A stretch of DNA of 64,000 nt from Candidatus Desulforudis audaxviator MP104C (GTDB lineage: Bacteria; Bacillota; Desulfotomaculia; Desulfotomaculales; Desulforudaceae). The notes beneath the pieces are model-generated. The model made no database searches. It was given only the letters and a program-made list of their open reading frames with translations, and had not been told where the DNA came from. Shown here in pieces: positions 2,640 to 26,946 of the stretch (position 1 is its first letter; each line of letters begins with the position of its first letter). The position numbers and the translations under genes were made by a program. The DNA is taken from contig NC_010424.1 of the NCBI RefSeq assembly GCF_000018425.1, positions 496,001 to 560,000 on the forward strand, in the 5' to 3' direction.

Positions 2640-3410
2640 ATGAGGGTTGATTTGGAGAAAAAGAAGCGGCGGGTGGCTTTGAACGGGAGCCCGATATTCG
2701 AGGCTCACGAGACGTTCCGGTGTTCCTGCCACCCGGGCCTCCCGTGTTACAACTCGTGCTGCCGGGACATTGACATCTATCTGTCTCCGTACGACGTGGT
2801 GCGGATGAAGAACAGGTTGGGGCTGACTTCCGGGGAGTTTTTGAGCACTTATACCGCCAGGCTCGGCACTAAGGCGGGGCTTTTTATTGTGAGGCTCGAC
2901 ATGCGGGATGACGCGGAGAAGCTCTGCCACTTCGTCACCCCGCAAGGCTGTCGCATCTACTCCGACCGTCCCTGGGCCTGCCGCATGGCGCCGATCGACG
3001 TCAACAGCCGCGGGGAGTACCATTTCATCTTCAACGACTCGCAGTGCCTGGGGCTCAGGGAAACGCAGGAGTGGACCGTGGAGACCTGGATGCGGGACCA
3101 GGAAATGCTCGTTTACGACGAGCTGGAAGCCGTGTTCCGGGACCTTCCTTCCCGGTTGCGCTTCACCGGGCTGCCCAGCCTCGACCGGCACGTGGCCGAG
3201 ATGCACTTTATGGCCTGCTACGACGTGGACCGGTTCCGGAGATTTGTCTTCGACACGAGCTTCCTCAAGGAATACGGGGTTGCGGACGAACTGGCCGCCC
3301 GCCTCCGGACCGACGACGTGGAGCTGATGAAGTTCGGTTTCACCTGGCTCGCGGACGGGGTGGACGTGCGCAAGACCATGGAGCTGCGGGACCAGCTTCA
3401 ATCTGCCTGA
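2640..3410 (+). CDS. YkgJ family cysteine-cluster protein
   Basis: A 256-residue protein of the YkgJ (UPF0153/CxxCxxCC) family. The N-terminal cysteine cluster FRCSCHPGLPCYNSCC (residues ~29-44) and the later CHFV...GCRIYSDRPWACRMAP block (~residues 98-120) supply the conserved metal-ligating cysteines; the RPWxCR segment is the family's signature. Members probably bind zinc or an Fe-S cluster; the reaction is unknown. ATG 2640 follows GGTGAGAGG closely. It has the 2.6 kb promoter region to itself and no operon partner. Confidence 0.8.
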   Translation: MRVDLEKKKRRVALNGSPIFEAHETFRCSCHPGLPCYNSCCRDIDIYLSPYDVVRMKNRLGLTSGEFLSTYTARLGTKAGLFIVRLDMRDDAEKLCHFVTPQGCRIYSDRPWACRMAPIDVNSRGEYHFIFNDSQCLGLRETQEWTVETWMRDQEMLVYDELEAVFRDLPSRLRFTGLPSLDRHVAEMHFMACYDVDRFRRFVFDTSFLKEYGVADELAARLRTDDVELMKFGFTWLADGVDVRKTMELRDQLQSA

Positions 3411-4044: not shown

Positions 4045-4140
4045 GGGTCAAACCTTTAGTTTTTTAGTTACCGAATATTTTGACAAAAAGGAACCAGTCC
4101 CCGCGCTCAAGCCGGCAAAGGGGACAATGAAAGTCAAGAA

Positions 4141-4171
4141 AGGTAAAAAGGGGCCAGGCCCCTTTTTACCT
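4141..4171. repeat. dispersed palindromic element, copy A (also a likely terminator)
   Basis: A perfect 15-bp inverted repeat (AGGTAAAAAGGGGCC, one-base loop, and its complement). Close relatives lie at 26924-26946, 13168-13190 and, degenerate, near 11479-11500. The flanking AAAGTCAAGAA is shared with the 26.9-kb copy. It sits just past the stop codon of the minus-strand selenoprotein gene and probably also ends that operon. Confidence 0.7.
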
Positions 4172-4174
4172 TTT

Positions 4175-4777
4175 TCAGTTCAGGAGTTCTTCGGCCAGAT
4201 GGAGCGTGCCATCCAGGCTGGTTGGACCCCAGCCGATGGAGCTGTGCCGGACAACGCCTTCGCGGTCCAGGTACACGGTCACCGGGATGCCCTGGATCCG
4301 GTAGAGCCGGCCCACCTCGCGCTTGCCGTCGAGCAGGACTTCGACCTTCAGGTCGTGCTTGGCGATGAAGTCCGCCAACTGCTTTTCCCGGTCGGCGGTA
4401 ATCAGGACAACGTCCAGGCCCCGTGCGTGCCATTCCTCTAAGTAGGGCTGCAACTGCAGCACCTTGTTCACACAGGGTCCTCACCCCAGGGAAAAGAACA
4501 GCAGCATCACGGCGCGGCCCCGGAAGTCAGCCGGTAGCGATACCTGGCCCCCGTCCAGGGACGGCAGCCGGAAAGCCGGCGCCGGGGTGCCCGGCGTGGG
4601 CCAGTCCAGGGGCGGCGGCAGCGCGGTGCCGGTGCCACTCGGGACTGCAGGGACTGCAGCCTGGTCGGGAGGGGTGATGTTTCCGTTAGGCGCCGAACCC
4701 CAGGAACCGCACCCGGCGGCGACGAGCAGCAGTGCAGCAAGCAGGAGCAAGGCCAGTACGGGTCTCAAGCTTTGCAC
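4175..4777 (-). CDS. TlpA/ResA-like thioredoxin lipoprotein, predicted selenoprotein (UGPC active site)
   Basis: A 200-codon gene read through one in-frame TGA at complement(4481-4483). GTG 4775-4777 follows AAGGAGGTGA. Residues ~5-25 form a lipoprotein signal ending in the lipobox LLVAAGC, then a Pro/Ala-rich linker, then a TlpA/AhpC-type fold beginning FRLPSLDGGQVSLPADFRG. The strand LLFFSLG is followed by TGA-GGA-CCC-TGT, so the redox motif would be Sec-Gly-Pro-Cys where relatives have CxxC. The frame continues without interruption through VLITADREKQ and the cis-Pro segment IQGIPVTVYLDREG to the natural end. A hairpin suited to a bacterial SECIS lies downstream of the TGA. Family role: thiol-disulfide exchange outside the membrane. 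Alternative: a nonsense mutation splitting a former cysteine enzyme. Confidence 0.75.
4445..4462 (-). promoter_or_regulatory. candidate bacterial SECIS hairpin
   Basis: On the minus strand a 5-bp stem GCTGC/GCAGC (4460-4456 with 4451-4447) closes the four-base loop AGTT. The loop G (4454) is 27 nt after the UGA, inside the 16-37 nt range usual for bSECIS elements. Just below the stem a U opposes C, resembling the bulged U of known elements. All of it lies within coding sequence, as bacterial SECIS elements do. Confidence 0.55.
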
Positions 4778-5649
4778 TTTCTCACCTCCTTGTCTGCCAC
4801 GCGGGCGGTGAAGGTGAGCGCCCCCGTGGGGCAGACCCGGGTGCACTCCAGGCAGCGGATGCACTCGGGGTGGTTCGGGGCGCGGTCCACCGCGATCTGC
4901 AGCGGGCAGGCGTCGCGGCAGGAGTGACACTGTTGGCAGCGGCTCGCCCGGTAGTCGAGCCGCCACAGGCTGACCGGGTTCATGAGCCCGTAGAAGGCTC
5001 CGAGTGGACAGGCGGTCCGGCAGAAGGGGCGGTACACGAACACCATCGCCACCAGGAAAGCGGCCAGCACCCCCACCTTCCAGAAAAAGAGCGGCCCCAT
5101 CAGCGCGCGGAGCGCCGGGTCACGCAGACCCACCAGCAAACCCGCCTCCAGCGTGCCCGCCGGACAGACGTAGGTGCAGAAATAAGGGGCGCCGATCCCG
5201 GCGGCGCTCACCAAGAGCGCGGGCAAGAACAGGACGGCGGCCAGCATCAGGTACTTGATCGCCGACAGGAAGGACGGGACCCGGACCTTGCGCGCCCTGG
5301 GCCGGGCCAGCACCTCCTGGAGCAGACCGAACGGGCAAAGCCAGCCGCAGATCAGCCGCCCCCCCAGCGCCCCGGCGGCGGTGACAACTCCGACCACGTA
5401 CAGCGAGACGGCGTGCCCCGGCAGGGCGAGCAGCACCTGGTAGGAACCCACCGGGCACGCTCCCAGGGCTCCGGGGCAGGAGTAGCAGTTCAAGAACGGG
5501 ACACAGACCTGCTTGAGCGAACCCTGGTAGATCCGGCCCTCGGCGAAGCCGGAAAGGTGGCCGTTGGCGGCGAGCGCCGAGGCAAGCTGGACCATCCTCC
5601 GCCGCGGGTTCGGCCGCGGATCGAGCGGATCTAACGGATGCCGATGCAT
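4765..5649 (-). CDS. membrane polyferredoxin-like 4Fe-4S protein (NapH/YccM type)
   Basis: Membrane-bound electron-transfer protein. Visible: an N-terminal cysteine segment CVPFLNCYSCPGALGACPVG, then about five hydrophobic helices carrying the paired motifs GRLICGWLCPFGLLQE and FCRTACPLGAFYG typical of NapH/NosR/RdxA-like proteins, then two C-terminal ferredoxin clusters (CQQCHSCRDACP and CIRCLECTRVCP). It likely passes electrons from the quinone pool or cytoplasm to the thioredoxin-like partner encoded next, whose start overlaps its end by 13 nt. ATG 5647-5649 is the best start I see, although its ribosome site is weak; the gene overlaps the upstream CXXC gene, so translation is probably coupled. 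Confidence 0.8.
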   Translation of the reverse strand: MHRHPLDPLDPRPNPRRRMVQLASALAANGHLSGFAEGRIYQGSLKQVCVPFLNCYSCPGALGACPVGSYQVLLALPGHAVSLYVVGVVTAAGALGGRLICGWLCPFGLLQEVLARPRARKVRVPSFLSAIKYLMLAAVLFLPALLVSAAGIGAPYFCTYVCPAGTLEAGLLVGLRDPALRALMGPLFFWKVGVLAAFLVAMVFVYRPFCRTACPLGAFYGLMNPVSLWRLDYRASRCQQCHSCRDACPLQIAVDRAPNHPECIRCLECTRVCPTGALTFTARVADKEVRKCKA

Positions 5650-5771
5650 TCCAGGCAGACTACGGCGGCCTTGTGGAACACGTCCGCGGCCTCGCCGCGG
5701 GCCAGGCCGGCCAGAACGAGCCCGAGCCCGACGGCTACCAGTCCGTACGAAACCCAGCGCCGGTTTTTCAA
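5631..5771 (-). CDS. CD1871A-family small CXXC membrane protein
   Basis: A 46-codon gene. TTG 5769-5771 follows GGTGGAG by 6 nt. The product has one membrane helix (YGLVAVGLGLVLAGLARG, residues ~9-26) and ends VFHKAAVVCLECIGIR, the hallmark Cys-Leu-Glu-Cys-Ile-Gly tail of the CD1871A CXXC family. It overlaps the start of the 4Fe-4S membrane protein gene by 19 nt and is first in a three-gene redox operon. The function is not known; the two cysteines and the context suggest a thiol partner of the downstream thioredoxin. Confidence 0.8.
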   Translation of the reverse strand: MKNRRWVSYGLVAVGLGLVLAGLARGEAADVFHKAAVVCLECIGIR

Positions 5772-6032
5772 GTGGCACTCCACCTTTCACCGGTCTATAT
5801 TAGACTCCGGGTGCCGAAACTCCTACCGGCGCACCGTGAAAGGCCTCCCGCCCGACGCAGCGGCGGGACGCGTTAGAACTACTCATCACTCGCTTATCTC
5901 TCTATTTCCTGCATCCACTGGAAGACCAGGGATTTCTTCATCACGACCTACCCGTCTTGCCCTGCCCTGACCCGCCCTCGACCCCACCCCTTCAGAAAAC
6001 GGCTCCGAAAGACATAGAACTTGTCCGAAAAG

Positions 6033-13168: not shown

Positions 13169-13190
13169 AAAAGGTGTCAGGCACCTTTTT
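13168..13190 (+). repeat. palindromic element, copy C; likely terminator of nnrDE
   Basis: AAAAAGGTG and CACCTTTTT (13168-13176 and 13182-13190) pair around a 5-nt loop containing the GTGTCAGGCAC core, overlapping the nnrDE stop codon. A T tract on the distal side makes it terminator-like. It belongs to the dispersed family seen at 4.1, 11.5 and 26.9 kb. Confidence 0.65.
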
Positions 13191-26923: not shown

Positions 26924-26946
26924 AAAAAGGGGCCTGGCCCCTTTTT
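26924..26946. repeat. palindromic element, copy B
   Basis: AAAAAGGGGCC, one-base loop, and GGCCCCTTTTT (26924-26934 with 26936-26946), flanked upstream by AAAGTCAAAGAAGGT as in the 4.1-kb copy and downstream by two CCCCTTTTTCGGAAA-like strings. A second inverted repeat GTTAGGATC/GATCCTTAAC lies just before it (26885-26905). No glycine T-box is visible in this leader. Confidence 0.7.

Follow-up and report, generated by a model that had tools for sequence, protein, structure and literature searches.

Does a TGA inside an otherwise open frame stand for selenocysteine (Sec), or does it mark a broken gene or the border between two genes? The question is raised by positions 4175-4777 of a 64,000-nucleotide stretch (hereafter the window) from Candidatus Desulforudis audaxviator MP104C, whose genome is a single contig of 2,349,476 bases. 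With a probability of about 0.94, the gene found here is predicted to encode one selenoprotein with Sec at 4483-4481, because the UGA and a hairpin behind it are conserved and the Sec machinery is present.

The gene and its product

The original prediction placed a frame of 200 codons with one TGA at 4175-4777, and this was confirmed. The strand had been left unstated; it is minus, because the plus-strand reading of the same positions has further stops and contains no redoxin sequence. The gene runs from a GTG start at 4777-4775 to a TGA stop at 4177-4175 (200 codons plus stop), with the following features.

4175..4777, minus strand: predicted selenoprotein gene for a ResA/TlpA-like lipoprotein, identified from TGA-readthrough translation, the Pfam AhpC-TSA/Redoxin domain, a ResA-like fold and the lipobox VAAGC
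4481..4483, minus strand: UGA codon predicted for selenocysteine, the U of U-G-P-C; the column is UGA in 19 genomes including the source, and Cys in more distant homologues
4785..4789, minus strand: GGAGG, 7 nt upstream of the GTG and likely the ribosome-binding site, as read from the sequence

With Sec at the UGA, translation gives a product of 200 residues (about 21 kDa) that contains ...VMLLFFSLG-U-GPC-VNKVLQLQP.... Both this translation and the homologue column agree with the earlier proposal that the TGA falls on the first Cys of the ResA/TlpA-type CxxC. A signal peptide with the lipobox VAAGC is followed by a low-complexity linker and then by the redoxin domain, FFSLG-U-GPC-VNKVLQLQP. 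This domain is Pfam AhpC-TSA/Redoxin (PF00578, 79.2 bits against a cut-off of 26), and its UxxC active site is U-G-P-C. The U/C, C and Pro columns are invariant, and the fold is that of a thioredoxin, with its CxxC at the centre and its cis-Pro loop. By profile, the nearest solved proteins are Bacillus ResA and StoA. An AlphaFold2 model, built with Cys substituted for Sec, has a mean pLDDT of 91, and its best PDB match is a Bacillus ResA-type oxidoreductase. The lipobox and the ResA/TlpA fold thus support the original description as a TlpA-like thioredoxin lipoprotein. Scores against the NCBIfam ResA/StoA/TlpA equivalog models stay below the cut-offs (ResA, 62 against 170 bits; StoA, 48 against 210 bits), and the best NCBIfam E-values of other members of the group are also far too weak. 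The protein works like ResA yet is not classed as a ResA equivalog. All NCBIfam models stay far from their cut-offs on this protein and none covers the group, so automatic annotation probably truncates these genes.

Mechanical frame calling splits the locus into 4175-4471 and 4481-4966, both on the minus strand. The first of these had been foreseen exactly; the second had been given as 4481-4777, which is close. The split could be taken at face value, with translation stopping at the UGA and restarting at GTG 4471 to give two proteins, and a frame with this GTG does exist. This is very improbable, as a single thioredoxin fold would be cut at its active site, and there would be no explanation for the exclusive choice of UGA or for a hairpin that goes together with the Sec machinery.

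Beyond the gene, a perfect inverted repeat lies at 4139-4173 (17-nt arms AAAGGTAAAAAGGGGCC/GGCCCCTTTTTACCTTT, 1-nt centre), beginning 1 nt past the stop codon. Its 21-nt core occurs again at 26925-26945 and, with 3 mismatches, at 13169 (chance expectation 0.02). A terminator is one possible reading of the repeat, a dispersed palindromic element another.

Conservation of the UGA codon

Homologues were collected at E <= 1e-8 from 298 genomes of relatives, and 123 of these genomes contain one. In the nearest homologues, from 18 other Firmicutes genomes, there is exactly one TGA, and it is always in the same column. Some of these genomes belong to the same genus and others to different families of the phylum, with identity falling to about 35%, and the codon is UGA, never UAA or UAG, in all carriers. 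Most of the more distant homologues are stop-free, and the ten that were looked at have Cys in the UGA column; the Cys forms are L035 and L043-L052. A few weaker matches also carry one TGA. Alignment, as the original prediction had suggested, therefore gives UGA or Cys at the same column, and truncation of the homologues at this site, named there as a refuting outcome, is contradicted by a frame that stays open to about 35% identity.

These data bear on the possibility that the TGA is a sequencing error or a nonsense change in a pseudogene of the ordinary Cys-type TlpA. The frame has a single in-frame stop and is open otherwise, and TGA is one base away from the Cys codons TGT and TGC, as such a change would require. 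The same TGA in 18 other genomes, the frame open to about 35% identity and the conserved hairpin leave this reading next to no probability, and on the compared sequences it can be regarded as already refuted by conservation.

When named genomes were scanned, 19 loci came up. Each of them has the UGA and the hairpin, and each carries the label Firmicutes or that of a lineage inside this phylum; Candidatus Desulfopertinax cowenii, a Desulfovirgula sp. and Syntrophomonas wolfei subsp. methylbutyratica are among them. Since the LQLQP peptide served as the seed, the scan is biased towards Sec forms and does not test the hairpin independently.

One Cys form, L035 of genome G023, has TGC at the UGA position and is nested in the Sec clade; its hairpin is lost and its NapH-like neighbour (see below) is kept. 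L035 is best read as a Sec-to-Cys reversion, although the genome retains SelA and SelB. In another genome, G256, there are two TGA-bearing redoxin copies, at C34:188337-188864 (L058) and C1:189263-189721; the copy on C34 has no NapH-like neighbour. L097 (G033:C1:1729300-1732200) is a Cys-form homologue beside a NapH-like gene; its match is divided between overlapping segments, two in number and not in the same frame, which suggests a possible frameshift.

The hairpin downstream of the UGA

4447..4460, minus strand: bSECIS hairpin GCUGC-AGUU-GCAGC, 20 nt after the UGA; the distance is fixed in 19 Sec-form genes, TTG is fixed, and the hairpin is absent in Cys forms

A 5-bp hairpin with a loop G 27 nt past the UGA had been noticed before, and it was found at 4460-4447 with these dimensions. 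A U precedes the stem, and beyond the stem 4462 and 4446 could form another G-C pair. The window is G+C-rich; by a simple rule, a bSECIS-like hairpin follows 412 of the 1615 TGA triplets on both strands (25%), and 9 of the 33 TGAs in the window that are flanked on both sides by 80 or more open codons. Taken from the window only, a TGA plus a hairpin is weak evidence, and the bare hairpin test is uninformative here. What lifts the combination above chance is the comparison: 18 other genomes share the frame, the UGA column and the hairpin.

The hairpin stands 20 nt after the UGA in all 19 Sec-form genes, in most of them as GCUGC-AGUU-GCAGC. There are a few variants: L028 has a compensated change of a C-G to a U-A pair, L040 has a U-G pair, and the loop is AGGU in L033 and L042. 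No Cys form has it. The hairpin overlaps the codons of V-L-Q-L-Q-P, a peptide that is kept in Sec forms and not in Cys forms. The second Leu codon within the hairpin is TTG in 17 of the 17 genes having Leu there, against 56 of 395 (14%) other Leu codons in the same genes; the nominal probability is 4e-15, with shared ancestry ignored. The hairpin is conserved and, as judged from the codon choice and the one compensated pair, is under selection at the RNA level.

Selenocysteine machinery

The original prediction called for a search for the sel genes and tRNA-Sec. All were found in the source genome, where, as for all genome-wide statements here, the result rests on family searches: selA and selB are adjacent, tRNA-Sec has the anticodon UCA, and there are two selD genes, each with one in-frame TGA. 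Other genes with an in-frame TGA are the FdhA gene, whose hairpin loop is GGUCU, and three HdrA/MvhD-type frames (L086, L087 and L088; GU-H-x-GDCHY), which share the hairpin TGCCACTATGTTAGTGGCA. SelB is present in 18 and SelA in 17 of the 19 genomes carrying the Sec form. G276, a carrier whose assembly is rated 90% complete, showed neither, and this counts against the selenoprotein claim.

The UGA might also be decoded as another residue, for example as Trp by a changed code, or by near-cognate readthrough, since the frame is open under any code with TGA as sense. However, TGA terminates both the selenoprotein gene and its NapH-like neighbour, tRNA-Sec (UCA) and SelB are present, and the homologues have Cys, not Trp, at the UGA column. 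Such decoding is highly unlikely. For the selenoprotein, SelB with Sec-tRNA(UCA) would bind the hairpin 20 nt downstream and direct Sec to the UGA. The product would then be a ResA/TlpA-type thiol-disulfide oxidoreductase, tethered by its lipid anchor to the outside of the membrane and using Sec-x-x-Cys as its active site. Its fold and motif make it a presumed redox shuttle through an Se-S bond.

A NapH-like partner gene

4765..5790, minus strand: gene of a NapH-like membrane polyferredoxin, upstream, with Fer4_5 and Fer4 domains; adjacent in 18 of 19 Sec-form loci

A conserved neighbour had been overlooked by the original prediction. The end of this gene overlaps the start of the selenoprotein gene by 13 nt; its own true start is uncertain, at about 5622 or further upstream. 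The protein has Fer4_5 domains and a C-terminal ferredoxin domain. It scores 69.9 against 213 bits and 67.9 against 234 bits with the NCBIfam NapH/MauN models, and on these scores the partner is NapH-like only. A NapH-like homologue lies upstream in 18 of the 19 Sec-form loci with enough flank (three loci with too short a flank were left out), L058 being the exception. Some relatives, too, have NapH-like proteins although no selenoprotein was detected next to them.

Whether the NapH-like protein contains a second Sec was considered, as the matches in G023 and G033 have one TGA; the idea was rejected, this TGA being the natural stop near the C-terminus. Genome G076 (L106, TGA at 3059) may have paired a Sec redoxin with a NapH-like protein independently: behind another NapH-like gene there lies a redoxin unlike the present one, which has its own in-frame TGA (WSTT-U-GPC-VQEMP) and its own type of hairpin.

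The source of electrons

CcdA/DsbD_TM is the usual electron donor of ResA/TlpA proteins. In the source genome, family search did not find it. Among genomes with the Sec form 4 of 19 have it, against 9 of the 10 genomes with Cys forms only (Fisher p about 0.001, uncorrected for relatedness), and it was not found in G023, which has the Cys revertant and the NapH-like gene. The selenoprotein and the NapH-like gene are probably co-translated, and the NapH-like protein would supply the Se-S bond with electrons brought across the membrane, the job of CcdA/DsbD for ordinary ResA/TlpA. Because nearly all carriers keep the adjacency and CcdA/DsbD is scarce among them, the NapH-like protein is proposed, at somewhat less than even odds, as the electron source of the Sec lipoprotein. 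The wider proposal, held a little more tentatively still, is a transmembrane reducing system that replaces CcdA/DsbD in anaerobic Firmicutes. It would be made up of the NapH-like polyferredoxin and the Sec-x-x-Cys lipoprotein facing outward, and in it an extracytoplasmic selenol would receive electrons from iron-sulfur clusters.

There is about an even chance that the protein is a selenoprotein and the NapH-like protein is not its donor, the operon being shared for some other reason, or the protein being a peroxidase reduced otherwise. The domain matches peroxiredoxin-type families too, and NapH-like proteins serve many different outside partners (PMC8238504) and, as noted, occur apart from any detected selenoprotein. 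Against this, the adjacency is conserved, the reading frames overlap in the source genome, the Cys revertant L035 keeps the partner, CcdA is scarce in carriers, and the closest structures are ResA-type oxidoreductases. If the NapH-like partner is indeed the reductant, there would be another route for reducing power outward, in which iron-sulfur clusters replace the cysteine pairs of CcdA/DsbD.

A role in System II cytochrome c maturation was also considered. ResB is absent from the source genome, which makes this role unlikely, and it is present in only 6 of the 19 carriers.

Comparison with known systems

Redoxins of PF00578 with UxxC entered the lists of predicted selenoproteins in 2005-2006 (PMC1088965, PMC1794560) and are included in a 2026 inventory of 119 families (PMC13188914, Table 1), so this kind of protein is already known. 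These Prx-like thiol:disulfide oxidoreductases share the domain, the motif and a bacterial SECIS downstream with the present group, which differs in having FFSxGUxxC-VLQLQP, one shared hairpin and an adjoining NapH-like gene. Zhang et al. (2006) listed a "distant Prx-like thiol:disulfide oxidoreductase" for Syntrophomonas wolfei; it is probably the same gene as that of the present group, since a subspecies of S. wolfei carries a member. Our literature search found no paper on selenoproteins of the source organism and none on the NapH-like/TlpA pair. New here are this member, the signature FFSxGUxxC-VLQLQP together with the one hairpin conserved behind it, and the pairing with a NapH-like gene in carriers that seldom have CcdA. 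The full-length gene is restored in at least 19 species of anaerobic Firmicutes, where annotation based on stop codons would split it.

Another group of TlpA/ResA-like selenoproteins is the UGC-containing TlpA family, or WAxxUGC_long selenoproteins (NF041054; PMC13188914). The motif there is UGC, as against UxxC here, and the present protein scores 39 bits against a cut-off of 300. Bacillus ResA and StoA are the best matches in sequence and fold, and they are likewise membrane-tethered redoxins with CxxC on the outside; the present protein differs by Sec for the first Cys and by a NapH-like partner in place of CcdA. Finally, the NapH-like extracytosolic electron-transfer systems (PMC8238504) also combine a PF12801 membrane iron-sulfur protein with a redox protein outside. 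The outside carrier in those systems is an FMN-binding protein or domain, and here it would be a selenocysteine redoxin.
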